Notes under the pieces: generated by a model
Told to the model about the DNA's origin: nothing
Seen by the model: the letters and a program-made list of their open reading frames with translations, nothing else
Databases searched by the model: none
Shown here: positions 3,651-21,299 of the stretch, in pieces
Layout of the letters: each line of letters starts with the position of its first letter
Position numbering within the stretch: the stretch's first letter is position 1
Translations under genes and position numbers: made by a program
Assembly (NCBI GenBank): GCA_947626345.1
Contig: CANQSF010000010.1
Coordinates: 1 to 64,000, forward strand
DNA: 64,000 nucleotides
Direction: 5' to 3'
Origin: an uncultured Oscillospiraceae bacterium
GTDB taxonomy: Bacteria; Bacillota; Clostridia; Oscillospirales; Oscillospiraceae

Positions 3651-3682
3651 GATGTTTCTCCTTTCCCCGTCCGGGACGGTCA

Positions 3683-3886: not shown

Positions 3887-3917
3887 TGTCGTTTCTCCCT
3901 TCCCCGGCTCCGCCGGA

Positions 3918-4088: not shown

Positions 4089-4111
4089 TGTCGTTTCTCC
4101 CTTCCCGGCGG

Positions 4112-4279: not shown

Positions 4280-4290
4280 GTTCTCTCCTC

Positions 4291-4596
4291 CTATGACAAA
4301 GCCAGCTTCAGCAATTCCAAGAACTCCGGGTCGAGGTCTTTGAGCTGCTCTCTGAACTGCTCAACGAGCTGCTCAGCGAGCCAATCGGTCATGCTCGGAT
4401 CCTCCACCCCGCCGGAGACGCCGTCCAGCTCCTCGTCGGTCAGCTCGCCCTTCTTTCCGCGGAGGACTTTCTCCAGCTTCGCGAGCTTCTCCGCTGTCAG
4501 CTCCACCCCGCACGCCTTCGCCGCGGCCTCCAATTCCTCCGGGCTCTTGGCCTGCTGCGCTTTTTCCACGAATTCCTCGATCTTCTTCTGCTCCAT
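4291..4596 (-). CDS. Nif11-type leader peptide (LP8)
   Basis: The 101-residue protein has a long helical leader typical of the Nif11-related precursor family: SPEELEAAAKACGVELT near residues 18-34, then LTDEELDGVSGG ending near residue 63. The 38-residue core (VEDPSMTDWLAEQL to LKLALS) is acidic and amphipathic, with no cysteine. Nif11 leaders are established substrates of NHLP-type C39 transporters, so this gene links the short-leader peptides around it to that export family. GGAGAACTATC precedes the ATG. The core could act as a helical membrane-active peptide; that is a guess from its pattern. Confidence 0.85.
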   Translation of the reverse strand: MEQKKIEEFVEKAQQAKSPEELEAAAKACGVELTAEKLAKLEKVLRGKKGELTDEELDGVSGGVEDPSMTDWLAEQLVEQFREQLKDLDPEFLELLKLALS

Positions 4597-4629
4597 GATA
4601 GTTCTCCTTTCTGCCGGGTCACCCGGCCA

Positions 4630-4866
4630 TCAAAGTTTGCGCCATGTCCATTCCGGGCCGTAGTTGTCTTTTAAGCAATCCTCGCAGATATAGGAAATGG
4701 ATCTTGCATAACCCGCCGGGTCACGGTAGGAACCCACTCCCAGGGGAATGTCGTCCCGACCGCATATAAAGCAGCATGGCTTATACATTGACCACCCGCC
4801 AGCCACCTTGTCCAGCGCCTCGTCGGCCAGTTCCTCGGGGGTCTTTTTGTTCTCGTTGTCGTCCAC
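4630..4866 (-). CDS. Double-glycine leader peptide with zinc-ribbon core (LP9)
   Basis: A 78-residue precursor with leader MDDNENKK then ELADEALDKVAGG and a 54-residue core. The core has CCFICGRD and, about 24 residues later, YICEDCLKDN, ending in WTWRKL. The two CxxC pairs fit a zinc ribbon. AAGGAGGAATGACGTG precedes the ATG. A separate upstream element at 4901-4922 suggests that this gene starts its own transcript, running through LP8 to LP3. Confidence 0.87.
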   Translation of the reverse strand: MDDNENKKTPEELADEALDKVAGGWSMYKPCCFICGRDDIPLGVGSYRDPAGYARSISYICEDCLKDNYGPEWTWRKL

Positions 4867-4900
4867 GTCATTCCTCCTTAAAACAATACTTGTTTTGGGG

Positions 4901-4922
4901 TCTCTGCTTTCTTATACGTTCC
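4901..4922 (-). promoter_or_regulatory. Cluster promoter-like element before LP9
   Basis: On the minus strand the sequence GGAACGTATAAGAAAGCAGA matches the elements before LP2, LP11 and the STAS gene. As before LP2, a GC-rich inverted repeat (GGCC-TTTC-GGCC) stands about ten bases upstream of it. The start codon of LP9 is about 40 bases downstream. Confidence 0.5.
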
Positions 4923-4956
4923 GGCAGGCCGAAAGGCCGATGGCGGTCGAGAAAAT

Positions 4957-6255: not shown

Positions 6256-6278
6256 AGATCTCTCCGTCCGCCGTCCCG

Positions 6279-6485
6279 TCAGCTGTTGCCGGGGAACACC
6301 GTGCGGCTGCTGATGCACCACACCTTTGCGCACGACGGGCAGTGCACCGTGCGGTTGCCCTCCGGCGCGCTCATAGCGGCGCCGCAGGAGCAGGTGAAGA
6401 ACAGAAACCCGTTCTCATATTTTGCTTTTACGCCCCCTGCCACCGCGTCCAGTTCCTCTTCGTTCAGGATGTTTCTCTCGTTCAT
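6279..6485 (-). CDS. Double-glycine leader peptide with zinc-ribbon core (LP10)
   Basis: A 68-residue precursor with a short leader (MNERNILNEEELDAVAGG, Gly-Gly at 17-18) and a 50-residue core. The core contains FTCSCGAA, then about 14 residues later VHCPSCAKVWC: a CxC and a CxxC pair plus one extra Cys, similar to an RNA-polymerase-subunit or transposase zinc ribbon. TAAGGAGAAACGATC precedes the ATG. It lies directly upstream of the acyltransferase gene, with 23 bases between. The leader keeps only the EELDAVAGG part of the family motif. Confidence 0.83.
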   Translation of the reverse strand: MNERNILNEEELDAVAGGVKAKYENGFLFFTCSCGAAMSAPEGNRTVHCPSCAKVWCISSRTVFPGNS

Positions 6486-6540
6486 GATCGTTTCTCCTTA
6501 TCAGTTAGTGATGATTTGATTTTCGCGCCGGGGCGCCCTA

Positions 6541-6765
6541 TTACACCCCGAGGGCCACATGGTACTTTTCATAGCACTCTCTGCACAGGTTCACCGGACC
6601 GGAGGGGCCGTAGTAGGTATCTACGGAGAAGTCGTGCAACCGAAAGCAGCAGGAGCAGCCGACATACCCGTCCTCCAATTCATCCCCCTCGCTGCCGCCC
6701 GCGACGGCGTTCAGCGCCTCGTCGGCCAGTTCCTCAAAGCTTTTCTCCTTTTTGTTGTCGTTCAT
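6541..6765 (-). CDS. Double-glycine leader peptide with zinc-ribbon core (LP11)
   Basis: A 74-residue precursor with the shared leader (NDNKKEK, then ELADEALNAVAGG) and a 50-residue core. The core starts acidic (SEGDELEDG) and then has GCSCCFRL and NLCRECYEKYH, again two cysteine pairs about 23 residues apart. The start ATG at 6763-6765 is fixed by the leader; the ribosome site (GAAAGGCG) is weaker than for the others. It is the first precursor gene downstream of the exporter genes and has its own promoter-like element at 6791-6806. Confidence 0.85.
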   Translation of the reverse strand: MNDNKKEKSFEELADEALNAVAGGSEGDELEDGYVGCSCCFRLHDFSVDTYYGPSGPVNLCRECYEKYHVALGV

Positions 6766-6790
6766 AACGATTCGCCTTTCTGTTTTTCTA

Positions 6791-6806
6791 TTTCTTGATA
6801 CGTTCC
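6791..6806 (-). promoter_or_regulatory. Cluster promoter-like element before LP11
   Basis: The minus-strand sequence GGAACGTATCAAGAAA matches the shared element before LP2 and LP9. It lies in the 198-base gap between the exporter gene and LP11, about 26 bases from the start codon. The rest of that gap shows no gene. Confidence 0.5.
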
Positions 6807-6963
6807 AGGCGGCCCGGAATTTTTTCAGGCCCCGACGGGTTTTCCCGCGGAGCGCGCAGAGTCCCGGCGGCCACGCGTGCAAATACTTACCGGTTTTTTC
6901 CGACCGTCCTCTCTCTGCCCGCCCAGCGGTTCGGCGATATCTTCCGGCGTCTGCGGCGCGCCT

Positions 6964-9159
6964 TTATGCGCTCGCCGTGCTCTCCGTGTCCAGCCGCTGC
7001 CGGGCCACCAGCTCCGCAAAGAAGCCGTCCGCGGCTATCAACTCCTCATAGGTCCCGTCCTCCACGATATGCCCTCCGTCCAGCACGATGATCCTATCGC
7101 AGTGGCGGATGGTGCTCAGCCGGTGGGCGATGACGATGCGGGTGCATTTGAGCTTATCCAGAGACTCAGACACGATACGCTGTGTGATATTATCCAGGGC
7201 CGAGGTAGCCTCGTCAAACATGAGGATGCGGGGCTTGGGGGCGATAGCGCGGGCAATGAGAAGCCTCTGCCGCTGGCCGCCGGAGATGCCGCCGCTACCC
7301 TCGGAGATCATGGTGTGCATGCCCATGGGCATGCGCCGGATGTCCTCCGCCACGCCCGCCATCTCCGCCGCCGCCCAAGCGTCGTCCATGGTCAGCCACG
7401 GCGCGGAGATGGTGATGTTGGAGTAGATATCGCCCTGGAAGAGCTTGCCGTCCTGCATCACCACGCCCATGCGCCGCCGCAGGCTCTTCAGGTCCAGGCC
7501 CGACATATCCCGGCCATCGTAGTAGATGGCGCCCTTCTGGGGCTTCTCAAAGCCCAGCAGCAGCCGCATGAGCGTACTCTTCCCGCAGCCGGTCTTTCCC
7601 ACGATGGCCACATACTGACCGGGGCGGATCTTGAGGCTCATGTCGTCTACCACGTTGGGCATATCCTCCGAATACCGGAAGGAGACGTTGTTGAGCTCAA
7701 TGCCGCCGGAGAGCCGCTCAACCACCTGTTTGTTCTCCGCGATCTCCGGCTCCGCCTCCAAGATGGGCTTAGCCATATTGAGGATGGGGATGATCTGGCC
7801 CACCATGGCCGCGATGCCGGCCAGGGACATGAACGCGCCGCTGATCATGGCGTAAGCGGAGTTGAAGGCATAGTATTCCGCCGGGGACACGCCGCTTTCC
7901 ACCGCCGCCACATACATCACCAGCGTCCCGGTGAGCGAGATAGCAAGGCTGATGACGCTGTTCACCTTCAGAAACATGGGCGGGTCATATTGCAATCGCG
8001 CCCCCTTGGCGTACTGCTCGCTCCACTTGGCGAAGGCCCGCTTCTCCGCGCCGGAGAGCTTCACCTTCTGCACGCCGCTGATGAGGGCGTAGGAAAGGCC
8101 GCTCTCCTTGGCGCTCTGCTCCAGCAACTGCTGGGTAACGCCCCGCTGGCGGATGGAGGTGAGCACCGAGAACACCAGCGTCACGGCCACGATCACCAGT
8201 GCCGGGGCCACCAGCGCCGGGGCGTAGGCGAAGATCTGGGTGATCTGCAAAAGGGAGAAGAGACTGGTAAGGCCCACCGCCGCCACCGAGGATATGAGCA
8301 GCGTGGACAGGACCTTGATATTCATCACGCGGCTTGCCATCTCGCCGGTGCTGTACTGCCGGAAGAAGTTGGCTGGCAGGGAGAAAAGCCGCATCATGCC
8401 CGCGGCTTCCACCGACACGGAGACCTTTGTGCTCATGCGCGTGGCGAGAAGCTGCTTGACTGTCTCCAAGAGCAGGGAGCTCACGCTCACCAGCAGCATG
8501 AAGCTCACCAGCGCCGCCAGCACTGTCGTGCTCCCGCTGGCCGCCACACGGGAGAACAGCAGATTGTTCAGTCTGGGCAGCAGCAGGCCTACCAGGCTCA
8601 CCGCCAGCGCGGACAGGGCGAACAGCGTCCAGTCCGCCCAGGAGGTGCAGGAGGCGATGTATCGCATCAGGCCAGGGATGCCGATCTTCCCCTGGGGGAA
8701 GGGTTTATAAAAGGCGACGGCCTCTTTTTCAAAGAGCGCCTCTGTCCGGGCGTTCACCCGCTGGCGCTTGCCCGTGTCCGGGTCGGCGTAGGTGTAGCCG
8801 GAAAGGCCCGTGGGGACCATGGCCGTGAGAGCGCCGTCGGACTTCCAGCGGACCAGCATGGCCCCGACGGCGTCCTTGTGCCAGCCCTTCTCCAGCGTCA
8901 CCGTCCGGCGCATGATGCCGTAGGGACGCAGCAAAAACTCCAGCTGCTCGTTCCAATCCTTCACCGAGTCGGGTACTTCCTGGCTCTTGGCGTGATAGTA
9001 GCGCAGTATTTCCTCTATGGCGCTTTTGGCCTGCGCTCTCTCATCCCCCGCCGCGACCCGGCGGCCCAGAACCGCCCCCGCGATGGAGGCGATGCCCTCC
9101 TCGAGGGCCTGCTGGTCCTGGAGGCGGCGCTGGCGTATCTGTTCGTCAAACCATCCCAT
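6964..9159 (-). CDS. NHLP-type ABC transporter, permease plus ATPase
   Basis: The 731-residue protein has an N-terminal soluble region of about 170 residues without the C39 cysteine, then a six-helix ABC exporter domain, then an ATPase domain: Walker A GKTGCGKST near residue 520, signature SGGQRQR near 627, Walker B ILMFDEATSALD. The architecture is that of the second ABC protein of nitrile-hydratase-leader (NHLM/NHLP) peptide systems, which pairs with a C39-bearing partner. It follows that partner gene by 12 bases. Substrates are inferred to be the double-glycine peptides encoded downstream. Confidence 0.9.
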   Translation of the reverse strand: MGWFDEQIRQRRLQDQQALEEGIASIAGAVLGRRVAAGDERAQAKSAIEEILRYYHAKSQEVPDSVKDWNEQLEFLLRPYGIMRRTVTLEKGWHKDAVGAMLVRWKSDGALTAMVPTGLSGYTYADPDTGKRQRVNARTEALFEKEAVAFYKPFPQGKIGIPGLMRYIASCTSWADWTLFALSALAVSLVGLLLPRLNNLLFSRVAASGSTTVLAALVSFMLLVSVSSLLLETVKQLLATRMSTKVSVSVEAAGMMRLFSLPANFFRQYSTGEMASRVMNIKVLSTLLISSVAAVGLTSLFSLLQITQIFAYAPALVAPALVIVAVTLVFSVLTSIRQRGVTQQLLEQSAKESGLSYALISGVQKVKLSGAEKRAFAKWSEQYAKGARLQYDPPMFLKVNSVISLAISLTGTLVMYVAAVESGVSPAEYYAFNSAYAMISGAFMSLAGIAAMVGQIIPILNMAKPILEAEPEIAENKQVVERLSGGIELNNVSFRYSEDMPNVVDDMSLKIRPGQYVAIVGKTGCGKSTLMRLLLGFEKPQKGAIYYDGRDMSGLDLKSLRRRMGVVMQDGKLFQGDIYSNITISAPWLTMDDAWAAAEMAGVAEDIRRMPMGMHTMISEGSGGISGGQRQRLLIARAIAPKPRILMFDEATSALDNITQRIVSESLDKLKCTRIVIAHRLSTIRHCDRIIVLDGGHIVEDGTYEELIAADGFFAELVARQRLDTESTASA

Positions 9160-9171: not shown

Positions 9172-11346
9172 TCAGTCGTTGGACACCAGACGGGTATAGT
9201 ACCCGCCCCTGGCGTAAAGCTCGTCGTGAGTCCCTCGCTCCACCACTTTGCCCTGATCCAGTACGATGATCTCATCGCAGTCCCGAATGGTGCTGAGCCG
9301 GTGGGCCACCACGATGCAGGTGACGCCACGGTCCTTGATGGACTTGACCACCTCATACTCCGTCTTAGCATCCAAGGCGGAGGTAGCCTCGTCCAGGATG
9401 ATGATGGTGGGATCCTGGGCCAGGACGCGGGCGATCTCCATGCGCTGACGCTGGCCGCCGGAGAAGTCCCGGCCGCCCTCCGTCAGTCTGTGGTTATAGC
9501 CGCCGTCCCGCTGCACGATGTCGCTGTGGATCCCTGCATCCCGCGCCGCCAGGATCATCTCAAAGTCCTCGATGGACTTATCCCACATCTTGATGTTCTC
9601 CGCGATGGTGTCCTCAAAAATGATGACGTCCTGATCCACTACCGCGAGAGAGCCGGTAAATACGCTCCGGTCAATGTCCCGGATGGGTTTGCCGTCAAAG
9701 AGGATCTCCCCGCTCCAGGGCTGATAGAGCCCGGATATCAGCTTGGACAGCGTGCTCTTGCCGCAGCCAGAGCTGCCTACGAAGGCCACCCGGCTGCCCG
9801 GTTTCAAAGAGAGGTTGAAGTCCTCGATCAGAGGCGACCCCAGCTTGGAGTAGCCGAAGGTGACATGCTTCATCTCCAGAGCGCCGGAGAGCTTGTCGTA
9901 GCTGTCCGGCTCTGCGCCCTCGGCCATGTTGCTGTCCTCCGGGTAGGCCATCACATCCTCCACCCGCTCCATCTCCGTGCGCATCTCCTGGATGGTCTGC
10001 CCGGCGGTGATAAGAGTAGTGGCGGGTGCAGTGAAACTCAAGAGAAAGCCCTGGAAGGCCATGACCATACCGATGGTGAACTGCCCCTGCATCACGAACA
10101 GCACACCAAGGAACAGAATGACCATATCGCTGATAACGCTCACGATCGACGGGATCAGGCCAAGGTATGCGTCCGTCTTGGTAAAGCGCATCTGCTGGGT
10201 GTTGACGCTGGCCTGATAGCCGGCCCAGCGCTCAAAGTAGCCGTTCTCCGCGCCGGCGGCCTTGATGGTCTCGATCATCTCGATGGCCGCCATGGTGGAG
10301 GACGCCAGCTTGCCGGAATCGCGCATCTGCACGCGGGTGATGTTCACCCGCTTTTTGGAGATGAACCGGCTCACCGCCAGATCGATGACCACGGACGCCA
10401 GGCCCACCAGTGTCAGGACCCAGGAATAGCGCAGCATGACCACCAGGTAGAACACCATCATGATGGCATTCAGCACCAGGGGCCCCAATGTGTTCACCAG
10501 TTCCTGGGCGATGGAGGCGTTGGTAGCCTGCCGCTGCTGAATGTCGCCCGCCATGCGCTGGGAGAAAAACTCCATGGGCATGTGCAGCACCTTCCACAGG
10601 AACGTGGCCGCACCCACCGAGGCCAGCTTTCCCGTGATGCGAAGGGACCACACCGCCTGGACCCAGGCGACGATGAGCTGCAGAACGCTCACGCCCGCCA
10701 ATATCAGCACGAAGGGCCACAGCCAGTCCGGGTTCTGGCCCGTCAGCAGCCGGTCCATGAAGATGCGGGAGAAGGCGGGGTTTATGACCCCGAACAGGGC
10801 GCTTATGAGCGTGGTCAGCGCCACGAACACTAGCGCCGCTCCCGCGCCGGTCAGGCGCTTTTTCGCGTATCCCGCCATGCTCTTGGGGCTGCCGCCGGGC
10901 TGGAAATCCTCCCCCGGCTCAAACATCAGGCAGATACCCGTGAAGGACTCGTCGAAGGTCTCCATGCTCACCGGGGTGACGCCTCTGGCCGGGTCGTTCA
11001 GGATGGCCTTGCCGCCCTTGAAGCCGTCCAGCACCACGAAGTGGTTGAAGTTCCAGTGGATGATGCAGGGGAACGTGCCGCTCTCCCGCAGGTCCTCCGG
11101 CTCCAGGCGGTACGCCTTCGCCGTGAGGCCGTAGCTTCGCGCGGCCCGCAGCACATTTTTGGCGTTGGAGCCGTCCCGGCTCACGCCGCAGTCGGCGCGC
11201 ACCTGCTCCAAAGGGACCCACTTATCGTAATACGCCAGCACCATGGTAAGGGAGGCCGCTCCGCACTCCAGTGCCTCCATCTGCATGACTACCGGCACCT
11301 TCGCTACCCCTTTGGTGACGGGTCTCTTTATTACTGCTGTCTTCAT
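9172..11346 (-). CDS. NHLP-type C39 peptidase ABC transporter
   Basis: The 724-residue protein combines an N-terminal C39 peptidase with an ABC exporter. Catalytic residues are visible: C28 (QMEALECGAASL), H102 (NFNHFVVLDG) and D118 (NDPARG). Six membrane helices follow (about 160-440), then Walker A GSSGCGKST near 527, signature SGGQRQR near 630, and ILDEATSALD. Proteins of this kind cut leaders after Gly-Gly and export the core. It is placed 7 bases after the HlyD-like gene and just before the second ABC gene, the usual order of NHLP systems. This is the best evidence that the small leader peptides are exported. Confidence 0.94.
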   Translation of the reverse strand: MKTAVIKRPVTKGVAKVPVVMQMEALECGAASLTMVLAYYDKWVPLEQVRADCGVSRDGSNAKNVLRAARSYGLTAKAYRLEPEDLRESGTFPCIIHWNFNHFVVLDGFKGGKAILNDPARGVTPVSMETFDESFTGICLMFEPGEDFQPGGSPKSMAGYAKKRLTGAGAALVFVALTTLISALFGVINPAFSRIFMDRLLTGQNPDWLWPFVLILAGVSVLQLIVAWVQAVWSLRITGKLASVGAATFLWKVLHMPMEFFSQRMAGDIQQRQATNASIAQELVNTLGPLVLNAIMMVFYLVVMLRYSWVLTLVGLASVVIDLAVSRFISKKRVNITRVQMRDSGKLASSTMAAIEMIETIKAAGAENGYFERWAGYQASVNTQQMRFTKTDAYLGLIPSIVSVISDMVILFLGVLFVMQGQFTIGMVMAFQGFLLSFTAPATTLITAGQTIQEMRTEMERVEDVMAYPEDSNMAEGAEPDSYDKLSGALEMKHVTFGYSKLGSPLIEDFNLSLKPGSRVAFVGSSGCGKSTLSKLISGLYQPWSGEILFDGKPIRDIDRSVFTGSLAVVDQDVIIFEDTIAENIKMWDKSIEDFEMILAARDAGIHSDIVQRDGGYNHRLTEGGRDFSGGQRQRMEIARVLAQDPTIIILDEATSALDAKTEYEVVKSIKDRGVTCIVVAHRLSTIRDCDEIIVLDQGKVVERGTHDELYARGGYYTRLVSND

Positions 11347-11353: not shown

Positions 11354-11830
11354 TCAATTCAGCAGGAAGGAGATGGGCGAAACGCTGTCCACCACGACCT
11401 GGACCTCATAGACGCCCTCGTCCAGCTGCGTATCCAGCTCCGCCGGGTACACCCACTGGCCAGTCACAAGATCGCCCACATGCAGGGCATAGGCGTCAAA
11501 GCTCTCGTCCACCACCACGGGCTTGGAGGCCACGCCGGCCAGGGCATAATCATTCCCGCCGATGTGTACGGTCTGGCCAGTCCGGACAGCGTTCAGATCG
11601 TCCTCCGCTATGTAGCACACCGCCGCGCCATCCGGCCCGGCCACCGCCGCAGCCGTCACCGTGGTCTCCAGATGACCAAGCGCCGACCAGACGATGAGCC
11701 CCGCCAGCAGCGCGATCACCGCTGCCAGTACCAGCCACACGCCCGGACCGGTCACCCGGATATAGTCGTTCATCTGCTCCGGGCTGGACACCTTATCCAG
11801 GCTCTTTTGGCGAAACAGTCCGTTTTCCAT
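11354..11830 (-). CDS. NHLP-system HlyD-like secretion protein
   Basis: The 158-residue protein has a short cytoplasmic start (MENGLFRQKSLDKVSSPEQ), one membrane helix (about residues 33-52) and a beta-rich extracellular domain. This matches the secretion (membrane fusion) protein of NHLP systems, here shorter than the typical HlyD family because the long coiled coil is missing. The ATG at 11828-11830 follows GGGGAGATCAATT. It precedes the C39 transporter with a 7-base gap and probably forms a complex with the two ABC proteins. Confidence 0.82.
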   Translation of the reverse strand: MENGLFRQKSLDKVSSPEQMNDYIRVTGPGVWLVLAAVIALLAGLIVWSALGHLETTVTAAAVAGPDGAAVCYIAEDDLNAVRTGQTVHIGGNDYALAGVASKPVVVDESFDAYALHVGDLVTGQWVYPAELDTQLDEGVYEVQVVVDSVSPISFLLN

Positions 11831-11869: not shown

Positions 11870-13048
11870 TCAGAATGTCAGGTTATCCACACGGCCCAAA
11901 AGTTCAGCCAGCCGGGTCTTACAGTTTTCGATGATGATCTGTCCCTCGGGCGAGCTCCCCTTCCGGCGGATGGTGCGCCGCAGCAGCCGGGTGTAGCCCA
12001 CCACCCGGGCCTTGTCGGCGATCCCGGCCAGGCGGGCAGGATCGTCCGTGCCGAAGTAGAGCCGCAGCGTCTTGTCCCAGATGGCGGCGCAGGTGTCGTA
12101 ATCCAGGCCCAAAAACCGCTCCACCACCGTGTGATCCGGCTCGCCGAAGCCCTGATAGGCCAGGAAGATGGATGCGAACTCGAACACGGGATGGCCCATG
12201 CACAGGGTGTCCATGTCGATGAGCAGCACCTCGCCGTTCTGGACCATCACGTTCTTCACGTGGTAGTCCCCGTGGAGCATGTGCCGGTCCTCCGGCACGG
12301 CGGCGATGAGCCGGTGCAGCTTTTCGTACTGCTCCAGGGGCAGGTGGCTGCTGAGATAGTCGGCCCAGCCCAGGGCCACGGCCTTCATGTCCGGCATGTC
12401 GCCGGGCCGCACCTCGGTGGCGTGGATCTTTTTCAGCAGGTCCACATAGACCTGCACATACTCGTCCAGCCGCTCCGGCTGGGCCAGGATGAGCTTGGCC
12501 AGGCTCTTGGCGTTCAGCAGTTCGAACACGGAGCCGTACCCCTCCCCCACCTTCACCACGTCGTAGGGGATGGCGGTAGGGATGCCCAACACGAAGGCCC
12601 TCCGGGCCAGCTCCCGCTCCCGCTGGATGTCTGGCAGGCTGTCCGGATTCAAGTACACCTTGATGATGGTGTCCGGGTCCAGGCGGTACACCTCGCCGTT
12701 GGCGCCCCGGCCGATGACCTCGCAGCCGTCCACGCTCAGCCGCCGGTAGGCCTTCCCCACCGGCATCATCTCCGTGAAGCCGGTCATCTCCAGGATCTCA
12801 TACACCTCCGACGAGGCGTTCACCAGCCGCAGCTCCGGCCGCTCCTTCCGCAGCCGGAGGATGATGCGCAGCCCCGCGCTGGATATATACGTCAGCCGCT
12901 CCAGATCCAGCACCACCGCCTCGGCGGGGATGTCCTGCCGCAGCCGGTTCAGCTCCTGCTCCGCCTGGGCGGCGTTGCCGGAGTCGATGTGGCCGATGAG
13001 CGACGCCGTCAGTACACCGTCCTCAAGTTTTCCCTCTGCCAGACTCAT
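11870..13048 (-). CDS. STAS domain fused to APH-type kinase
   Basis: The 392-residue protein has an N-terminal STAS domain (residues 8-100) with the phosphorylatable Ser pair (S56-S57 in TYISSAGL). An aminoglycoside-phosphotransferase/choline-kinase-like domain follows: Gly loop GRGANGEV 113-120, K130, catalytic loop HGDYHVKN (D261, N266) and LIDMD (D278). STAS proteins of the SpoIIAA type are targets of RsbW-like kinases, and the next gene upstream encodes one. The kinase substrate is unknown; it could be a small molecule or a peptide. The gene is 13 bases after the RsbW-like gene and 39 bases before the HlyD-like gene, so it joins signalling and export in one operon. Confidence 0.85.
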   Translation of the reverse strand: MSLAEGKLEDGVLTASLIGHIDSGNAAQAEQELNRLRQDIPAEAVVLDLERLTYISSAGLRIILRLRKERPELRLVNASSEVYEILEMTGFTEMMPVGKAYRRLSVDGCEVIGRGANGEVYRLDPDTIIKVYLNPDSLPDIQRERELARRAFVLGIPTAIPYDVVKVGEGYGSVFELLNAKSLAKLILAQPERLDEYVQVYVDLLKKIHATEVRPGDMPDMKAVALGWADYLSSHLPLEQYEKLHRLIAAVPEDRHMLHGDYHVKNVMVQNGEVLLIDMDTLCMGHPVFEFASIFLAYQGFGEPDHTVVERFLGLDYDTCAAIWDKTLRLYFGTDDPARLAGIADKARVVGYTRLLRRTIRRKGSSPEGQIIIENCKTRLAELLGRVDNLTF

Positions 13049-13061
13049 AGAATCTTCTTCC

Positions 13062-13481
13062 TTATGCTTCCAAGCGCTTTTCCACAGTTAGAATGTTCTG
13101 ACCGTCCTTATACTCATAGCGCACGTCGTCCATGGTCTTTTTCACCATGAAGATGCCCAGGCCGCCGATGGGCCGGTCCTCCGCAGAGAGGGTCACGTCC
13201 GGGTCAGCCTTGGCCAAGGGATCGTAGGGCTTGCCGTGGTCGATGAACGTGATGCGCACCGCCAGCGGATCCCGGTCCACGTCCACCCGCACCGTAGCCG
13301 GGCCGGAGGGGTCGTAGGCGTACCGGGCGATGTTGCTGAAAAGCTCGTCGATCGCCACGTCGATCTGCATCTGCGCCTTCATGGGGCAGTCAAGCGTTTC
13401 CAGCCGCTCGTCCACAAAAGCTGTCACCGCCGGGATGTTCTCCAGCGTGGCCTCCACTGTCATCTCGCTGCGATCGTTCAT
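13062..13481 (-). CDS. RsbW/SpoIIAB-like anti-sigma-type serine kinase
   Basis: The 139-residue protein is a single HATPase domain of the RsbW type. The N box (DELFSNIARYAY), the G1 box (DHGKPYDP) and the G2 box (GGLGIFMVKK) are all intact, so ATP binding and Ser kinase activity on STAS proteins are expected. It overlaps the SpoIIE-type phosphatase gene by four bases (ATGA) and precedes the STAS-APH gene. Together these give kinase, phosphatase and two STAS targets, the parts of a partner switch. No matching sigma factor gene is adjacent, so the output is not clear. Confidence 0.9.
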   Translation of the reverse strand: MNDRSEMTVEATLENIPAVTAFVDERLETLDCPMKAQMQIDVAIDELFSNIARYAYDPSGPATVRVDVDRDPLAVRITFIDHGKPYDPLAKADPDVTLSAEDRPIGGLGIFMVKKTMDDVRYEYKDGQNILTVEKRLEA

Positions 13482-15088
13482 TTCATCTTCTCCTTATATT
13501 CCAGGCACAGCATCGTGATGTCGTCGAACTGGGGAGCGTCGCCCACGAAGGCATCGATATCCGCTTTCACCGACGGCAGCAGCTTATCCGGCGCGGCGTC
13601 GGCGTACTTGTTCAGCACCGCCTCCAGCCGCTCCATGCCGTACAGCTCGTTGTGGGCGTTGGTTGCCTCGGTGACGCCGTCCGTGTACTGGAAGATCGCA
13701 TCCCCCGGCTCCATTTGCAGGGATCCCATCTTGTACCGGGTCATGTCCATGCCCGCAAGGACGAACCCGGCTCGAATCTTCTCGGGGGTGTATTTTCCCT
13801 GCCGGCGGATGAACGGCATCTCGTGGCCGGCGTTGACGAAGTTGAACTGGCCGGTCTTCAGGTCCAGCACGCCCTCGAAGGCGGTGATGAACAGCTCCTC
13901 GCCGTTGCCTTCACACAGGAGCTTGTTGACTTCCATGAACACCTCGCCCAAGTCGCGCCCGGGGGTAGTGTGATCCTTGATGAGCGTCTTGCCGATGACC
14001 ATGAACAGCGCCGCGGGCACGCCCTTGCCGGACACGTCCGCCATGACGATCGCCAAGTGGGTATCGTCCACCATAAAGAAGTCATAGAAGTCGCCGCCCA
14101 CCTCCTTGGCCGGGTCCATGGTGGCGTAGATATCCACCTCTGGCCGGTCCGGGAAGGGCGGGAAGATGCAGGGGAGCATGGAGGCCTGGATGTGGGTGGC
14201 GATGTCCAGCTCCGCGCCGATGCGCTCCTTTTCTGCCGTCACCGCCGTCAGGTTGTCGATGTACTGTTTGATCTCCGCCTCCATCTTCAGGATAGAGGAT
14301 GCCAGCACGCCGATCTCGTAACGGTTCTCCGTGGCTTTCAGGGCCGTCACCGGGTTTTCCCCATCGTTGGCGAAACGCTCTGCCTCGCCGGTGATCTCCG
14401 CGATGGGCTGGATCACCTTCCGGTTCAGCCACAGCAGGTAAACCAGCAGCGAAAGGATCACCATCGCCGCCGCGATGGATGTGACCCAGAGGATATAGGT
14501 GCTCCGCGCGCCATAGAGGACGGTCATGGATTTCTCCACGCCGATCACGGCTACCACCTTGCCGGAGGAATCCTTCACCGCCAGGCCTGCCGTGGTGTGC
14601 GCGCCGGACTCGGTATAAGAGTACAGATACTTCTCCGCCCGGCCGCCCGTTGTCAGGATATGCTTCAGGTCGTCCACATAGTTCGGGTCAATGTCCCGGG
14701 AGACATAGCCGAATTCATAGCGGCTGAAGCCTGTGGCCGGGTTGACGGAGTCGTAGATGTAGGTGGTCGTCATGTAATCCGTCTCGTCTATCTTCGCCAC
14801 ATAGATGAAATTACAGTTGCTGCTCACCACCAGCTCGTCGAGACGCGCCAGGATGGCGTCGTACTCCTCGTCCGTCTGCCCCGACTGCAGATACTCATCC
14901 AGTTTGTCCGGGTTCAGATAGGTCAGCGCCGTCTCCGCCACCTCATAGGCGGTGTCGTTATACTGCTGCTCCAGCACATGGGTGAACTGCTGGTAGCCCG
15001 TCACCGCCACGATCACGCTCAGGATCACGATGACTGCCACGATGCTCGCCACCATCACTACCGCCAGTCTGCGGTTCTTCTTTTTCAT
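13478..15088 (-). CDS. Membrane SpoIIE-family protein phosphatase
   Basis: The 536-residue protein has two membrane helices (about 9-30 and 198-218) around an extracellular sensor region of roughly 165 residues. A HAMP-like segment follows, then a PP2C/SpoIIE phosphatase domain (from about residue 300) with metal-binding Asp motifs (EVGGDFYDFF, ADVSGKG, FDDIT). Enzymes of this group remove phosphate from STAS proteins after sensing an outside signal. Its partners would be the STAS proteins at both ends of the operon. Four-base overlaps with the genes on both sides show tight translational coupling. The ligand is unknown. Confidence 0.9.
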   Translation of the reverse strand: MKKKNRRLAVVMVASIVAVIVILSVIVAVTGYQQFTHVLEQQYNDTAYEVAETALTYLNPDKLDEYLQSGQTDEEYDAILARLDELVVSSNCNFIYVAKIDETDYMTTTYIYDSVNPATGFSRYEFGYVSRDIDPNYVDDLKHILTTGGRAEKYLYSYTESGAHTTAGLAVKDSSGKVVAVIGVEKSMTVLYGARSTYILWVTSIAAAMVILSLLVYLLWLNRKVIQPIAEITGEAERFANDGENPVTALKATENRYEIGVLASSILKMEAEIKQYIDNLTAVTAEKERIGAELDIATHIQASMLPCIFPPFPDRPEVDIYATMDPAKEVGGDFYDFFMVDDTHLAIVMADVSGKGVPAALFMVIGKTLIKDHTTPGRDLGEVFMEVNKLLCEGNGEELFITAFEGVLDLKTGQFNFVNAGHEMPFIRRQGKYTPEKIRAGFVLAGMDMTRYKMGSLQMEPGDAIFQYTDGVTEATNAHNELYGMERLEAVLNKYADAAPDKLLPSVKADIDAFVGDAPQFDDITMLCLEYKEKMK

Positions 15089-16728
15089 CTCACTGCCTCT
15101 CCCTTGAAAAAGTCTTTCTGCTCCTGGGTCTGCAGGATGTGGATGGGTTTATTCTGTTCCATGCGATATCCCTTCCCCGCCAGGAATTCACGGTACGCCG
15201 CGAAAGCGCCTTTTTGCAGGGGCAGCACCCGCACATCGCCGATGTGCCCCATCTCCCGGGCGCCCTTATATCCGAAGCAGCTCTCCCGAAGGCAATCGTC
15301 CAGCAGCGTTTCCGCTCCCGCCGGCAGCGCTCCCGTCCTCGGCTCCAGATACACCGAATAGTACGGCGTGGAGCCACGAAAGCCCGTGTCCGCGCAGTAC
15401 CCCTCCAGGGAACAGCCCGAGAGCCGCTCAAATCGCTGCATCGCCTTTTCCATCTGCCGCATATCCATTTTCTCGTCCGCCACGTTGAGCACCTGGCTCT
15501 TCCGGCGGCTCATGCGGATGATCGGCGCCTCGCCGTAGAAGCCCGTCACCTCCACGATATCCCCCATCATATACCGGTAAAGGCCGGACAGGGTGGTGAC
15601 CACCAGCTCGTAGCTCTTCCCGGCCTCCACCTCCCGGAACGTCAGCGTCTGCTCCCCTGTCCCTCCCTCCGGAAGGAACTCAAAGAAGCAGGACTCCGGG
15701 ATCAGCACATAGCGGGCGTCCTCCTCCTTCAGCGTGTAGACCGCGCCCAGGATGCTCTCCGAGGAGGCATAGGCGTAAAAATGGATGGGCAGGTCACCGA
15801 TGAATATGCGTAGCTCATCCATGTACCCCTGGAAGATGCTGCCCCCCGCCATGCGGATGTACCGCAGCTTAGGCCAGATGCGGCGCACGAGCCCGTCGGC
15901 CGCGCCGTTCCCCGCCGCGGCCCGCAGCTCCTCCGCCCGTGCGGGATCGGGGGCGATGCGCTCTTTTATGTAGCGCTTCCACGGATCGCTGATCGCAAAG
16001 CAGCTGCTGACCTCTCCGCTGCCCACATCCTCCACGAAAGCGTCCCAGTGCTCCAGGAGATACTGGAACATCTGCACCACCCCATGCACGAAAACGCCGT
16101 GGATCGCGGTGATATCCCGGCAGGCCAGAGCGAAGCGCAGCCTCACATAGAGCAAGTTCTCCATTTTCTCCGGGAACATCACCTCCCGGGGAGAGGTATA
16201 GGCGGAGAAGTCGATCTCGTCTCTCGATTCCAGCCACCGCATCAGCACGCCGGAGCGCACGCCGTTCATGGTGCCGTCCGGCATGGCGGTGCGGTAAAAC
16301 TCGCCGGTCTCAAAGATCCTGCCAAACAGCTTCTCGTCCGGGAGGCCCGCCAGCTCTTTCCAGATGACGTCCTGCACTGCATCCAACAGGTATATCCGGT
16401 GGACCGTCACATCCCGCTGGGTGATGGGCACATACTTCGGCTGGGAGGTGCTGCCCGCGCTGATGCAGTAGAACACCGGCTCATCGGCTGTCAGAAGCCC
16501 TTTTTCTCCCCCGATCTGGCGCTCTATAAGCGGTTCATAGTCGTCATACCGGGACAGGGGCACCTGCTTTCGGTAGTCCTCTACGGTGCGAAGGCCGGAA
16601 AAGCCCCACTTCTTTCCGTATTCTGTCTGCGCGTTGCGCTCCAGCAGCTCCATCAGGAACCGCTCCTGCACACGGACGGCGTCGCCGCACACGGCCTCCA
16701 TGCGCCGGAGCCCTGTTTCTTCTGTCAT
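15085..16728 (-). CDS. GH3-family acyl-adenylating enzyme
   Basis: The 547-residue protein resembles the GH3 (auxin-responsive promoter) family of the adenylate-forming superfamily: an ATP-loop ISAGSTSQPKYVPIT near residue 90, and later YRYMMGDIVEVTGF and RMSRRKSQVLNVADEKM, where the C-terminal domain begins. Known plant members join amino acids to acyl acids through an acyl-AMP; bacterial ones are mostly uncharacterised. GGAAAGGAAAGT sets the start at 16728; a start six codons earlier is possible. Lying in the exporter operon, it may make or attach a small acid or amino acid, but no substrate can be read from the sequence. Confidence 0.8.
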   Translation of the reverse strand: MTEETGLRRMEAVCGDAVRVQERFLMELLERNAQTEYGKKWGFSGLRTVEDYRKQVPLSRYDDYEPLIERQIGGEKGLLTADEPVFYCISAGSTSQPKYVPITQRDVTVHRIYLLDAVQDVIWKELAGLPDEKLFGRIFETGEFYRTAMPDGTMNGVRSGVLMRWLESRDEIDFSAYTSPREVMFPEKMENLLYVRLRFALACRDITAIHGVFVHGVVQMFQYLLEHWDAFVEDVGSGEVSSCFAISDPWKRYIKERIAPDPARAEELRAAAGNGAADGLVRRIWPKLRYIRMAGGSIFQGYMDELRIFIGDLPIHFYAYASSESILGAVYTLKEEDARYVLIPESCFFEFLPEGGTGEQTLTFREVEAGKSYELVVTTLSGLYRYMMGDIVEVTGFYGEAPIIRMSRRKSQVLNVADEKMDMRQMEKAMQRFERLSGCSLEGYCADTGFRGSTPYYSVYLEPRTGALPAGAETLLDDCLRESCFGYKGAREMGHIGDVRVLPLQKGAFAAYREFLAGKGYRMEQNKPIHILQTQEQKDFFKGEAVR

Positions 16729-16756
16729 ACTTTCCTTTCCCACCATATCGCGTCTG

Positions 16757-18493
16757 TCACAGCACGATCAGAAGCGTGTTCATCCCAAACGTGTCCTGGT
16801 AATCCACCTTCTTCACCAGCTTTTGCAGCATCCGCATGCCCATATAGAGCATGTCGTCGTCCCCGCCATCCCCGGACAGGAGCGGGTCAAACTTTTTCCC
16901 GTTATAGCGGATGCGGATGCCGGTCTCGCTGGGCACGGCGTACACCCGGATGTCAAACAGGATCCGCTGGGGGTCGTTGATGCTCGTGATGAGCGTCATC
17001 ATCTCCTCCAGCGCCAGACTCACCCGCATCACCTGCTTGGCCTGCATCCCGTTTTCCTGGCAGAAATCCGTGATCCTCTCACTGGCCTCGCAGATCTTCT
17101 CGTTATCGCTGATCATGGAGAAGTTGATGACCTGGCCCGCCTTTTCCAGCGTCTGATCCATGAGAAAATACCGGCTGGTCATCTCGCTCCGGCGGTGCAG
17201 GATCCCGGTGATGAGATACCACACACACACCGTGAGCAGTTCGCCCGCCGTGAGGAACAGCCACGGCGTTATCCCGGACGCCAGCAGAGCCAGCAGGCTC
17301 AGCGCCGCGAACACATAGGACTTGAGGATGATGATCAGGTTGGACAGCCCCGCGCGGCCCGAAACGCTGTAATAGGAGGACAGCACGTTGTTCCAAAGGG
17401 AGGGGATCAGGCTGACGGCAAGGCACAGCATAGGCAGCCGCATGGGCTGCGCCAGGCCGTAGGCCGCCGCGATGAGATCCGCGCCCAGCACGATGACCGC
17501 GCCGAAGACAAGGCTGTACAGAACGCCCTTTTTCAGCTCCAGCCGCAGCAGGATGCAGATGCTCTCGTTGTCTTTCTCGCCCCGGTACACGCCCATCATC
17601 GCCGTGCCCGCCTGGGGAACGCCCACCGTCACGGCCTCGGCAAAGGCGCTGATCCCGTTCAGCACGGAAAACTCCGCCAGCATCATGCTGCCGCCGTATC
17701 TCTGCAGCAAGCCATTCACGCACAGAATGCGCAGCGTCTGCACCAGGTTGTTCATCGCGGCCGGACTGCCTGCCGCGGCCAGCTCCCGAAATTCTTCTCT
17801 CCCCGGGATCGCCGGCCCCGGTCTGAAATGGAAAGTGCCGCGGTGAAGACTCATGAAGCCGACAAGGCACGCCGCCGCCGTCGCAATGACGCTGGCCAGC
17901 GCCGCGCCGAACACGCCCAGGTTCAGGCCGTACAGGAATGCGACGTCCAGCGCCACGTTCCCCGCGCCCATGATCGTCATCATCACGGTCACGGTCTTGT
18001 TCTTTCCGTCCAGGCGCAGGTACCAGAATGGGACATACAGAAAGATCTTCGGAAATGCGCCCGCCAGCGTGACAAGCGCATAGTCCTTCACCATGGAAAG
18101 GATCTTTTCATCGCTGCACAGAAAAGCCGCGATCTTATCGATCAGAAGGAGCCCGGCGGCTGTCATGACAACAGAGGAGAGCAGGCAGAGCGTGATCGCA
18201 TAGCGGTAATACATCCCCGCCTTGTCCCTGTGGTTGGCGCCGATCTCCCTGGAACTGCAGATCGCCGCGCCAGACACGAAAAAGGAGCCGGCGATGCAGA
18301 GGATCAGATAGACCGGCACGCAGAGATTGATGGCCGCAAGGCCCCCCGCTCCGATCTTCTGGCCTACCAGGACTCCGTCCGCGATGATATTGACGCAGCC
18401 GCTCAAAATCGACAACATCCCCGGCCAAAGCGCCGCGCGGTATGTCTTTCCCAGAAACTCCTCGCTCTGTACCAGGATGTTCTCCTCTTCCAT
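16757..18493 (-). CDS. MATE-type transporter fused to RsbW-like domain
   Basis: The 578-residue protein begins with twelve-helix MATE/polysaccharide-flippase-type membrane segments (about residues 15-430). A soluble C-terminal domain of about 130 residues follows, with the layout of an RsbW-like HATPase (LALEEMMTLITSI as N-box position, YNGKKFDPL as G1, LYMGMRMLQKLVKKV as G2). The N-box Asn is missing and the G1 Asp is replaced by Asn, so the domain may bind a STAS protein or nucleotide without kinase activity. The gene follows the STAS gene by 17 bases. A transporter gated by a partner switch is a reasonable inference. Confidence 0.8.
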   Translation of the reverse strand: MEEENILVQSEEFLGKTYRAALWPGMLSILSGCVNIIADGVLVGQKIGAGGLAAINLCVPVYLILCIAGSFFVSGAAICSSREIGANHRDKAGMYYRYAITLCLLSSVVMTAAGLLLIDKIAAFLCSDEKILSMVKDYALVTLAGAFPKIFLYVPFWYLRLDGKNKTVTVMMTIMGAGNVALDVAFLYGLNLGVFGAALASVIATAAACLVGFMSLHRGTFHFRPGPAIPGREEFRELAAAGSPAAMNNLVQTLRILCVNGLLQRYGGSMMLAEFSVLNGISAFAEAVTVGVPQAGTAMMGVYRGEKDNESICILLRLELKKGVLYSLVFGAVIVLGADLIAAAYGLAQPMRLPMLCLAVSLIPSLWNNVLSSYYSVSGRAGLSNLIIILKSYVFAALSLLALLASGITPWLFLTAGELLTVCVWYLITGILHRRSEMTSRYFLMDQTLEKAGQVINFSMISDNEKICEASERITDFCQENGMQAKQVMRVSLALEEMMTLITSINDPQRILFDIRVYAVPSETGIRIRYNGKKFDPLLSGDGGDDDMLYMGMRMLQKLVKKVDYQDTFGMNTLLIVL

Positions 18494-18510
18494 GCTCTTT
18501 GATCCTCTTA

Positions 18511-18807
18511 CTATTCGATGGTCAGGATATCCGCGAAGCCTGTGACCTCAAAGATCTCCATGATCGTCTCGTTCACGTTTTTGATCACCATGGAACCTTG
18601 CCGGTTCATGACCTTCTGGGCGCTGAGAAGCACGCGCAGTCCCGCGGAGGACAGGTACTCCAGCCCAGAGAAGTCCATCACCAGCTCCGTGACGCCATTC
18701 GCGCTCTGCTTCAGTTCCGCCTCCAGCTGCGGCGCAGTGGTGGTGTCCAGCCGGCCTTCCAGGGCCAGATCCAGATGGGAACCATTCTGGTTTTTCGTGA
18801 TAGTCAT
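18511..18807 (-). CDS. STAS-domain anti-sigma factor antagonist
   Basis: The 98-residue protein is a single STAS domain of the SpoIIAA/RsbV type, with the Ser pair at 53-54 (LEYLSSAGLRVLL) that RsbW-like kinases phosphorylate. The start at 18807 is preferred because GGGAG lies eight bases upstream; an ATG two codons earlier is too close to it. It is the first gene of the long minus-strand operon ending with the exporters. A leader of about 200 bases separates it from its promoter-like element and contains a 17-base inverted repeat. Confidence 0.9.
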   Translation of the reverse strand: MTITKNQNGSHLDLALEGRLDTTTAPQLEAELKQSANGVTELVMDFSGLEYLSSAGLRVLLSAQKVMNRQGSMVIKNVNETIMEIFEVTGFADILTIE

Positions 18808-19090: not shown

Positions 19091-20479
19091 TCAAACGTTC
19101 TCCGGCATATTCAGCCGGATGCGGGAGGTAAACATATTATTCTCGGCATCATATCGAAACTTGGCGCTCCCACCATATTTCTGCGCGGCCTGGGCGATGC
19201 TCCGAAGCCCATATCCCCCCGTCTTTCTGCTTAGAAACGACTCTGCGGGCAGGAAACCGTCCTCAGTCTGCATCCGGCGGCCCAGGCGCACGCCATCGCA
19301 GGCATTGGATATCTCGATGGCGAGGGACCTGTTCACTGTGCCGACACTCACGTTGATCCATCGGTTCTGGCCGCACCTCCTGCAGGCGTTGACTGCGTTT
19401 TCCAGAGCGTTGCCAAACACCACCGTCAGGTCCGTGGGGTCGATGGTCACCTTGTCGCACTGGGCGTGGATGTCGCACCGAATACCCTCGTCCCGAGCCA
19501 CGCCCGCATAGTATTGCAGCAGCCCGTTGATCACCATGTCCTTACAGTAGACCTCATTTATACGCTTGGTTGCAGCTTCCAGCACCTGGGACAGATAGCC
19601 CCTCATCTCCTCCAGCCGGCCTTCCCGAAGCATCTCGTTCAAGGCGCTATAGTGATGGCGCAGGTCATGGCTCATCCGCCGGGTGTTCTCCATTTCGCTG
19701 GCAATTTTTTCATACTGCAGCTTCTGGATCTCCAGGGCACGCTGGTGGTCATTGTCACGTTTACGCCACACGGACTCCCGAAAGATCAGCCAGTAGATCA
19801 CCAGCTGGTACAGCAACGTCATCAGAAGCTGTGGCAGCTCACGCACATACTCCCGGTATCCCAAACGGTAGTAGCGGACGTCGGCCGCCATCATCATCAG
19901 CAGGAAAACCACCGTGGTCACCGCCAGTATAAAGAACTCCTGGCGCATCTTCTTCGTCTCTATCTCCTGGAGATACTCGCTCAGCGGCCGGATCACCAGA
20001 AGCAGCATCAACGGCAGCAATATCACCGTCGTGACTGCGTACACTGCCAGCCCGCGGAGGGAATATACAGACCAGTTCTCCAACTCCTGGGACAGCGGGA
20101 TCACTCTGGCTGCGGCACCGAGCAGCATATTCACCACCCAGTACTGGGTCACGCCGTAAAACACCACTGCAAACACGACCATGGTCTTTTTGATCGGGGC
20201 CTCCCGCACCAGCCAGCCCTGGGCGATGAGCGTGAGCAGTATGACGGCGGCCATGAAGATGTTAGCGGCCATCGCTATGGTTCCCTGCTGCGCCACTGCG
20301 TACATCGCGGCCGGGAACAAGGCCGACAGCCCTGTTCCCGCTGCCACCTCCCCGAAAAGGACCTGCTTTTTCTGGAAACGGTACGCTTCTTCGGGAAAGG
20401 GCAGAAAGACCATCATCACACAGGGGAATATCTCAAGAAAGAAGCCGGCGGCGTTGCGCAGATATACACCTATGCCCAT
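19091..20479 (-). CDS. AgrC-like membrane sensor histidine kinase
   Basis: The 462-residue protein has about six membrane helices in the first 220 residues. A cytoplasmic kinase follows, with the H box MSHDLRHHYS (His near residue 269) and a GHKL ATPase domain (N box NALENAVNAC, later GGYGLRSIAQ). This is the layout of peptide-sensing AgrC-type kinases. It overlaps the LytTR regulator gene by ten bases. The regulator and exporter neighbours suggest that it senses a peptide, possibly one exported by this cluster. No AgrB or AgrD gene was found nearby. Confidence 0.9.
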   Translation of the reverse strand: MGIGVYLRNAAGFFLEIFPCVMMVFLPFPEEAYRFQKKQVLFGEVAAGTGLSALFPAAMYAVAQQGTIAMAANIFMAAVILLTLIAQGWLVREAPIKKTMVVFAVVFYGVTQYWVVNMLLGAAARVIPLSQELENWSVYSLRGLAVYAVTTVILLPLMLLLVIRPLSEYLQEIETKKMRQEFFILAVTTVVFLLMMMAADVRYYRLGYREYVRELPQLLMTLLYQLVIYWLIFRESVWRKRDNDHQRALEIQKLQYEKIASEMENTRRMSHDLRHHYSALNEMLREGRLEEMRGYLSQVLEAATKRINEVYCKDMVINGLLQYYAGVARDEGIRCDIHAQCDKVTIDPTDLTVVFGNALENAVNACRRCGQNRWINVSVGTVNRSLAIEISNACDGVRLGRRMQTEDGFLPAESFLSRKTGGYGLRSIAQAAQKYGGSAKFRYDAENNMFTSRIRLNMPENV

Positions 20480-21207
20480 GGCCGATCCTCCGAAAAACTC
20501 TTTCGCCGGGAAAGCTGCTCGAACACATAATCGTCATAAGCCGCACGGATGGCGGCGCTCTGCCGCACCGCGATGGGCAGCTGGGCACCGTCCTGCAAAG
20601 CGCAGGTGTTCGCTCCCATCTGCGCGATGTAGTCCATGTTGACGATGATCCCTCTGTTGATCCGTAAAAAGCTCCCGCCCAGCTTTTGTTCCAGTTCACT
20701 AAAAGGTTTCCAGACCTTCAGCCGCCGCCCATCGGACAGGGAGATGGTCACGACATGATTATCACCTTCAAGTAAGTAGATCTGATCCAAAAACACCGTG
20801 ATACGGTTTGTTCCCACGGCGAAGGAGATCGTCTCCCTCTGTTTTCTACGGAGCTCCGTCAGCCGGCGGAAGGCTTCCACCACACCCTGGGTGGTCACCG
20901 GCTTGACCAGATAATGCAGTGCGTTCAGGGAAAACGCATCCACCGCGTGCTCCGTGCTGGTGGTGACGAAGGCGATCCCCGTCTCAGGGGATATCTCCCG
21001 CAGCGCCTTGGCGATGTCCACGCCGTTTTCCCCAGGCATATAGATGTCCAAAAATGCGATATCGAAATCGGGCACGCCCTTCGCTGCCTCCAACAGCGAG
21101 GCGCCGTCCAGAAATTTCTCCGCTTTCCTCGTCGGGTCCCATCCCTGTAAGGCTTTCTCGAAATGCTCCAACTCCAGCGGGTCATCATCACAGACTGCGA
21201 TCCGCAT
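20470..21207 (-). CDS. LytTR-family response regulator
   Basis: The 245-residue protein has a receiver domain (acidic cluster CDDD, phospho-Asp D54 in AFLDIYMP, Lys in LVKPV) and a C-terminal LytTR DNA-binding domain from about residue 130 (LLEGDNHVVTISLSDGR, LRINRGIIVNMDYI). LytTR regulators bind pairs of 9-base direct repeats about 21 bases apart, upstream of the -35 box. Just such a pair lies before this gene's promoter (21495-21532) and before the M13 peptidase promoter. GAGGAGG seven bases upstream sets the ATG at 21207. The untranslated leader of about 240 bases holds repeated hairpins. Confidence 0.92.
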   Translation of the reverse strand: MRIAVCDDDPLELEHFEKALQGWDPTRKAEKFLDGASLLEAAKGVPDFDIAFLDIYMPGENGVDIAKALREISPETGIAFVTTSTEHAVDAFSLNALHYLVKPVTTQGVVEAFRRLTELRRKQRETISFAVGTNRITVFLDQIYLLEGDNHVVTISLSDGRRLKVWKPFSELEQKLGGSFLRINRGIIVNMDYIAQMGANTCALQDGAQLPIAVRQSAAIRAAYDDYVFEQLSRRKSFSEDRPWA

Positions 21208-21299
21208 AGACACACCTCCTCACAGCGGGTCCCAGACAATAACGCCTGCGATCATTTCCATTCGCTCGTCAATATAGTGGTGAACACACATATTTTTGA

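Follow-up and report, generated by a model that had tools for sequence, protein, structure and literature searches.

The partner switches of Bacillus subtilis, RsbU/RsbV/RsbW and SpoIIE/SpoIIAA/SpoIIAB, normally free a sigma factor. Partner switches that work without a sigma factor are also known, few of them, to our knowledge, with a known target, and we know of no STAS-kinase fusion or RsbW-like transporter domain in RsbUVW, SpoIIE/AA/AB, SiaABCD, SypA/SypE or BtrUVW. In Pseudomonas aeruginosa SiaABCD such a switch controls an enzyme (PMC7647112, PMC8457831), while the STAS/kinase/phosphatase sets SypA/SypE of Vibrio fischeri and BtrU/V/W of Bordetella act on something other than a sigma factor encoded alongside them, in the case of BtrUVW a secretion system (PMC8256260). 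Here we describe a nine-gene operon from an uncultured Oscillospiraceae bacterium, carried on a 64,000-nucleotide (nt) stretch (contig CANQSF010000010.1 of assembly GCA_947626345.1, positions 1 to 64,000; hereafter the window), in which a partner switch runs into a peptide exporter of the NHLM (nitrile hydratase leader microcin) type. We read it as a partner-switching module whose outputs would be proteins and not a co-encoded sigma factor, so that peptide modification and export may be gated after translation, a reading to which we give a probability of about 0.5.

Organization of the operon and its core switch

The nine genes form an unbroken minus-strand series from position 18807 to 6964, and are given here in that order with their best profile matches:

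18511..18807, minus strand, single-domain STAS protein, RsbV/SpoIIAA-like, 98 amino acids (aa) (Pfam STAS, 59.9 bits)
16757..18493, minus strand, MATE transporter with a C-terminal degenerate RsbW-like HATPase domain at about residues 455-578 (MatE, 75 bits; HATPase_c_2, E 6e-5)
15085..16746, minus strand, putative GH3-family acyl-adenylate/amide synthetase (PF03321, 212 bits, with GH3_M and GH3_C)
13478..15088, minus strand, SpoIIE-type PPM phosphatase with two transmembrane (TM) segments and an outside sensor, both predicted (PF07228, 147.9 bits, full domain)
13062..13481, minus strand, RsbW-like serine kinase (PF13581, HATPase_c_2, 85.0 bits)
11870..13048, minus strand, STAS-APH, an N-terminal STAS domain followed by an APH-fold kinase (Pfam APH, PF01636, 68.5 bits; STAS, 53.6 bits)
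11354..11830, minus strand, short HlyD-like exporter protein, 158 aa, one TM segment (TIGR03794, 36.3 bits, cut-off 156.2)
9172..11346, minus strand, NHLM exporter ABC1 with a C39 peptidase (TIGR03796, 945.8 bits, cut-off 853.3)
6964..9159, minus strand, NHLM exporter ABC2 (TIGR03797, 730.2 bits, cut-off 709.4)

Gaps of 17 and 10 nt separate STAS from the MATE gene and the latter from GH3, the GH3/SpoIIE and SpoIIE/RsbW pairs overlap by 4 nt each, and 13, 39, 7 and 12 nt lie between RsbW, STAS-APH, the short HlyD-like gene, ABC1 and ABC2, in that order. A preliminary description of positions 11870-18807 had set STAS, SpoIIE, RsbW and STAS-APH in a row with 4-base overlaps and small gaps leading into the exporter; we find the named genes, their order and their spacing at these coordinates, together with the GH3 gene, which lies inside the interval and had been left out. 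Pfam cut-offs are exceeded by STAS, SpoIIE, RsbW, both domains of STAS-APH and GH3, and not by the HATPase domain fused to MATE (23.4 against 27.4).

The operon thus encodes a SpoIIE-type PPM phosphatase, a STAS protein with a phosphorylatable serine loop and a GHKL kinase with intact N, G1 and G2 boxes, the components that it has in common with RsbUVW and SpoIIE/AA/AB. It differs from both in lacking a cognate sigma gene and in having a second STAS domain fused to an APH kinase, and its relatives often differ further by a fusion that joins the kinase with the phosphatase or with STAS-APH; the operon RsbW itself falls far below the cut-offs of the NCBIfam RsbW and SpoIIAB models. The phospho-loop SSAGLR is present in both STAS domains, with the candidate serines at S53/S54 in the single-domain STAS (within YLSSAGLR) and at S56/S57 in STAS-APH, just where the preliminary description had placed them, and the pattern SS(A/S)GLR recurs in 58 of 59 standalone STAS proteins from related loci. 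The ATP boxes of RsbW (E46, N50, D81, G83, G107, G109) are likewise intact as proposed, their residues being invariant across 74 homologous domains save for one D81N (D81 in 73/74), and the outside sensor ascribed to SpoIIE is borne out by predicted TM segments at about residues 4-36 and 196-226 bracketing an outside part of about 160 aa. Elsewhere in the host genome, an orphan STAS (C17:42302-42577; L226:3300-3596) resembles that of the operon and has the phospho-loop LSPEGLQ, not LSSAGLR.

SiaA is the best NCBIfam match of the operon SpoIIE, and SiaABCD is alike in combining a membrane SpoIIE-type phosphatase, a kinase and an anti-sigma-antagonist-like protein that control an enzyme and not a sigma factor (PMC7647112, PMC8457831). 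In SiaABCD, however, a DUF1987 protein (SiaC) binds the output enzyme, a diguanylate cyclase, whereas the operon has a STAS-APH fusion and a transporter with an RsbW-like domain, and no Pfam match to GGDEF or DUF1987 was found in any operon protein. SypA/SypE and BtrUVW are Gram-negative systems of other architectures, without a STAS-kinase or transporter fusion. We found no description of a STAS-APH fusion or of an NHLM-linked partner switch in the open-access literature.

STAS-APH and its recurrence

STAS-APH retains the features of a kinase (G-loop, Lys130, Glu144, HGDxHxKN and IDMD), and its STAS phospho-motif and APH catalytic residues (D261, N266, D278) are invariant in 24 homologues. 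The closest relatives of STAS-APH come from uncultured Oscillospiraceae (84% identity). The APH fold was also recovered in an AlphaFold2 (AF2) model of a STAS-APH-RsbW fusion from locus L156, which in Foldseek matches aminoglycoside phosphotransferases and choline-kinase-like proteins.

An alignment scan of 84,980 species genomes returned at least 557 STAS-APH relatives, 80 of which were fetched; with a class-wide search these gave 102 loci with a STAS-APH longer than 300 aa, 57 of them with at least 5 kb on both flanks. As STAS-APH was the criterion by which the loci were chosen, and as many of them derive from metagenome bins, the sample is not a random one. Near STAS-APH in the 57 well-flanked loci we found RsbW in 40, STAS in 36, SpoIIE in 34 and all three in 27, as well as a RelA/SpoT/Mesh1-type HD gene (PF13328) in 27, a MATE-HATPase in 10 and an NHLM exporter in 3. 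Since the same set recurs in many genomes, it is not a chance assembly. In L092, the nearest relative whose flank is complete, all of the operon is present and a single open reading frame (ORF) covers SpoIIE and RsbW; in L094 the operon lacks MATE and GH3. Two cultured commensals, Coprococcus catus (L130) and Flavonifractor An82 (L117), are among those that carry such loci.

Of the 102 loci, 35 encode a natural fusion of RsbW with SpoIIE and 11 one with STAS-APH in a single chain; to judge from these sequences the fusions would tie RsbW both to its putative phosphatase, SpoIIE, and to a putative effector, STAS-APH. On an RsbW tree the SpoIIE-fused state needs at least seven changes (16 by parsimony), and the tree mixes copies from Bacillota, Actinomycetota and Spirochaetota, a pattern consistent with horizontal spread or with misbinning. 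The preliminary description had named STAS-APH or the MATE-RsbW fusion as a possible output; the 11 STAS-APH-RsbW chains speak for the former, which is the best candidate for a protein-level output.

A further, immediate neighbour of STAS-APH in about half of the loci L057-L169 is a gene of about 190 aa of the HD_4 type (SpoT/Mesh1-like hydrolase; e.g., L065:9114-9695), whose HD, ED and N motifs are kept in the copy that we read; the gene is absent from the window operon.

Sigma factors

No sigma gene is present in the operon or in the same-strand run of any of the 102 STAS-APH loci, and the lone sigma-like gene in their flanks is SigK-like, 3.8 kb away and on the opposite strand (L103). The sigma-70 genes of the host genome are RpoD (sigA), SigE, SigK, SigG, SigF, SigH and eight ECF-like genes (four of the ECFs being judged from sequence only), one ECF-like gene lying within the window at 47940-48527; SigB was not found in the host genome, which does encode the sporulation set spoIIAA/spoIIAB/sigF. 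The absence of a sigma gene at these loci, together with that of SigB, supports, though it does not prove, a sigma-free, protein-level output of the STAS-APH form. The earlier statement that no sigma factor is encoded stands for the operon and for the STAS-APH runs, and does not extend to the exporter-linked family as a whole, four members of which carry an ECF gene.

The transporter-borne domain and GH3

The domains fused to MATE are homologous to RsbW (98.8% probability in a profile match), and an AF2 model of the window copy (pLDDT 80) has a GHKL-type topology. In the window copy EEMMTLI replaces E..N and YNG replaces DxG, so that the N-box Asn and the G1 Asp are lost, for which reason we rejected this copy as a second kinase. 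Across 17 such domains the G1 DxG is missing in 16, the exception (L089) lacks the N-box Asn, and none has both boxes. Two further MATE-HATPase fusions occur in the host genome, on C4 (L223:3199-4974) and C17 (L224:3425-5401). The C4 copy, which sits after an apparent AMP-binding enzyme gene, retains the N-box Asn and a DNG motif, so the wider MATE-HATPase family is not degenerate throughout. A sodium:dicarboxylate symporter (SDF) preceded by an extra domain was seen in L099, L113, L131 and L139 (e.g., L113:5797-7452); that domain resembles RsbW weakly in one member (L099, E 3e-4), and from its sequence SDF may possibly be a second transporter type bearing an RsbW-like domain. A protein of about 200 aa beside STAS (the L205, L207, L070 family) was rejected as a further degenerate RsbW, its profile support being too weak.

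In the order, 10 of the 295 genomes carry GH3; six genomes have a strong match, and in four of these the gene stands beside SpoIIE or STAS. Its identification as an OlsH lyso-ornithine lipid synthetase was rejected (87.9 bits against an NCBIfam equivalog cut-off of 620). Pseudomonas savastanoi matE-iaaL offers the same pairing idea, a MATE gene adjoining one for an enzyme that forms acid-amino acid conjugates, with IaaL there and GH3 here, which makes it a lead and not a test (PMC7074806).

Linkage to the NHLM exporter

Two further features border the operon, on its downstream and upstream sides:

94..6882, minus strand, about nine small double-glycine-leader peptide genes, among Sel1, C39-like and acyltransferase-like genes (ORF listing; leader pattern count 9)
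19091..21213, minus strand, GHKL sensor kinase (6 TM segments) and LytTR response regulator, directly upstream of the operon (Pfam)

Both ABC proteins pass the NHLM equivalog cut-offs of NCBIfam, and the operon shares with the NHLM system these two proteins, the C39 peptidase and the double-glycine leader peptides. It departs from that system in its short HlyD, which the NHLM HlyD model TIGR03794 matches over the N-terminal 49 positions only and below cut-off, and in having partner-switch genes within the same operon. The downstream peptides have NENKKTPEELADEALDKVAGG-type double-glycine leaders, with the shared leader NENKK(T/S)PEELADEALDKVAGG, and are expected to be the cargo of the C39-peptidase exporter. 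Several of their cores carry paired CxxC motifs and resemble tiny zinc ribbons rather than classical bacteriocins, and one peptide matches Nif11 weakly (14.1 bits, cut-off 23.8). The GHKL/LytTR pair, probably the transcriptional input to the operon, also adjoins six other exporter-linked switches (L204, L212, L219, L205, L206, L207); a promoter scan found no excess over shuffled sequence.

NHLM ABC1 was found in 25 of the 295 genomes of the order, and at 8 of 22 scored NHLM neighbourhoods at least two of STAS, SpoIIE and RsbW lie within 8.5 kb. With the window, L092, L094, and two loci (L079, L081) in which the exporter is followed by one 2400-aa gene and then by STAS-GH3-SpoIIE+RsbW, the exporter-linked switches total 13, all with the short HlyD form, which in switch-linked exporters measures 109-166 aa; exporters with an HlyD of at least 192 aa have at most one of the three switch genes. 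The link is weaker in other orders of the class, where L239 has only a STAS gene ahead of the short HlyD, and L246 has STAS and SpoIIE around it. Association with the exporter requires at least three changes on the RsbW tree (six by parsimony). Our estimate of how often SpoIIE would fall near NHLM exporters by chance assumed 9/26 or 7/26 loci, figures that predate the definitive 8/22, and treated related loci as independent, and is indicative only. Giant proteins (2200-2425 aa) are encoded 3' of NHLM ABC2 at L079:1166-8383 (with Calx-beta repeats), L081:10645-17922 and L203:13266-19901.

A proposed protein-level switch and its alternatives

In the mechanism that we propose, the membrane SpoIIE phosphatase would sense an outside signal, RsbW would phosphorylate the serines of the STAS domains and SpoIIE would take the phosphate off. 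Depending on its phosphorylation state, STAS-APH would have its APH-fold kinase either active or restrained by RsbW, and free STAS could find a docking site in the MATE transporter's kinase-dead RsbW-like domain. The switch would be co-expressed with the NHLM exporter and the double-glycine peptides, probably under the GHKL/LytTR pair, and from this co-expression we propose that modification and export are gated post-translationally. Phosphorylation, the STAS binding partners, the direction of control, the APH substrate and MATE docking are the parts of this scheme that we infer. The simplest reading of the loci together is a common input, a sensor phosphatase and a kinase acting on STAS, with swappable outputs, namely STAS-APH and transporter-borne RsbW-like domains, and perhaps an ECF sigma factor in some exporter loci; the output candidates that the window offers are STAS-APH and the MATE domain.

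Several observations weigh against this reading or limit it. STAS-APH, MATE-RsbW and GH3 are often all missing from exporter-linked switches, and several NHLM loci have STAS, SpoIIE and RsbW alone. Neither RsbW nor SpoIIE lies near STAS-APH in 15 of the 57 well-flanked loci, so STAS-APH may act with unlinked partners. The MATE-fused domain of the window, without its ATP boxes, would be a docking or receiver site at most and no normal kinase, which narrows the second of the two outputs first suggested. The AF2 model of the L156 single-chain fusion fails as proof of docking, its domain folds being confident and their relative placement not (predicted TM-score 0.62), and the window starts at a contig end, which leaves the genes past the peptide array out of view. 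Lastly, in four loci with STAS/SpoIIE/RsbW and the exporter but without STAS-APH (L199, L201, L204, L212) an ECF sigma gene lies 0.3-2.6 kb 3' of ABC2 on the same strand, so that the output probably differs between loci.

These four loci, with the eight ECF-like genes of the host, one of them in the window, speak for a classical output at a distance, in which RsbW would be the anti-sigma factor of a sigma factor from another locus (an ECF, or sigma F or G), the STAS proteins its antagonists, and STAS-APH and MATE regulated passengers. ECF genes, however, also stand directly 3' of short-HlyD NHLM exporters that have no switch (L202:10142-10645, L210:13332-13814) or STAS only (L239:7463-7942, L247:14274-14759), and from the switch-less pair the ECF seems to track the exporter and not the switch. 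An ECF and STAS-APH occur together in none of the 13 exporter-linked switches, a result often expected by chance with 4 and 3 cases. Like the STAS-APH runs, the window cluster, L092 and L094 are free of sigma genes, SigB is lacking, sigma F has its own SpoIIAB, very distant from the operon RsbW, and an RsbW fused to STAS-APH or to a membrane SpoIIE fits the role of a soluble anti-sigma factor awkwardly. We consider a distant sigma factor an unlikely explanation.

Rather unlikely, too, is that the exporter is the direct target, bound by unphosphorylated STAS (or RsbW) at its C39 peptidase or its short-HlyD/ABC complex, with STAS-APH, GH3 and MATE as accessory cargo. It would account for STAS, SpoIIE, RsbW, short HlyD, ABC1 and ABC2 being the sole parts common to most exporter-linked loci, for the longer HlyD forms never accompanying two of the three switch genes, and for a lone STAS immediately before the short HlyD in L239 and L246. 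Yet an NHLM exporter is present in only 3 of the 57 STAS-APH loci, so the switch works without it, and the distinctive part of the short HlyD, which has a single N-terminal TM segment, is predicted to lie outside the membrane, away from cytoplasmic STAS. That the switch genes were merely co-inherited with unrelated export genes on a mobile biosynthetic island we think improbable: the patchy distribution of GH3, the interleaving of RsbW copies of different phyla and the integrase- and relaxase-like genes at 24.6-27.4 kb are in its favour, but 4-base overlaps and a gene set that has come together repeatedly in several families are not what it would lead one to expect.

Genomic setting

The host genome (2.6 Mb, 97.9% complete) carries the operon on contig C10. 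HicA/HicB-, integrase- and mobilisation relaxase-like genes on the plus strand at 23854-27395 of the window may mark the edge of a mobile element, and a 458-aa protein without a Pfam match is encoded at 4957-6333, with relatives 3' of the exporter in L092, L094, L204 and L219. An anti-phage defence system was rejected, as PADLOC gave generic ABC ATPase matches only, and so was a plasmid-borne module, the plasmid relatives of RsbW being distant (best 43% identity).

Implications for gut Firmicutes

Beyond the window, a protein-level output may extend to a widespread class of switches in gut Firmicutes, whose outputs would be STAS-APH (often with a SpoT/Mesh1-like HD gene) and transporters (MATE, perhaps SDF) with RsbW-derived receivers for unphosphorylated STAS, and which here would act at the protein level to gate the modification and export of peptides; we offer this generalization tentatively, at odds that we put below even. 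The STAS-APH-RsbW single chains unite kinase, substrate and candidate effector in one polypeptide, and so make the target of a sigma-free partner switch directly testable in vitro. Should the RsbW-like domains on transporters prove to be receivers, phosphorylation switches would have a general way of acting on transport, and peptide export in gut bacteria would be subject to a new level of control.

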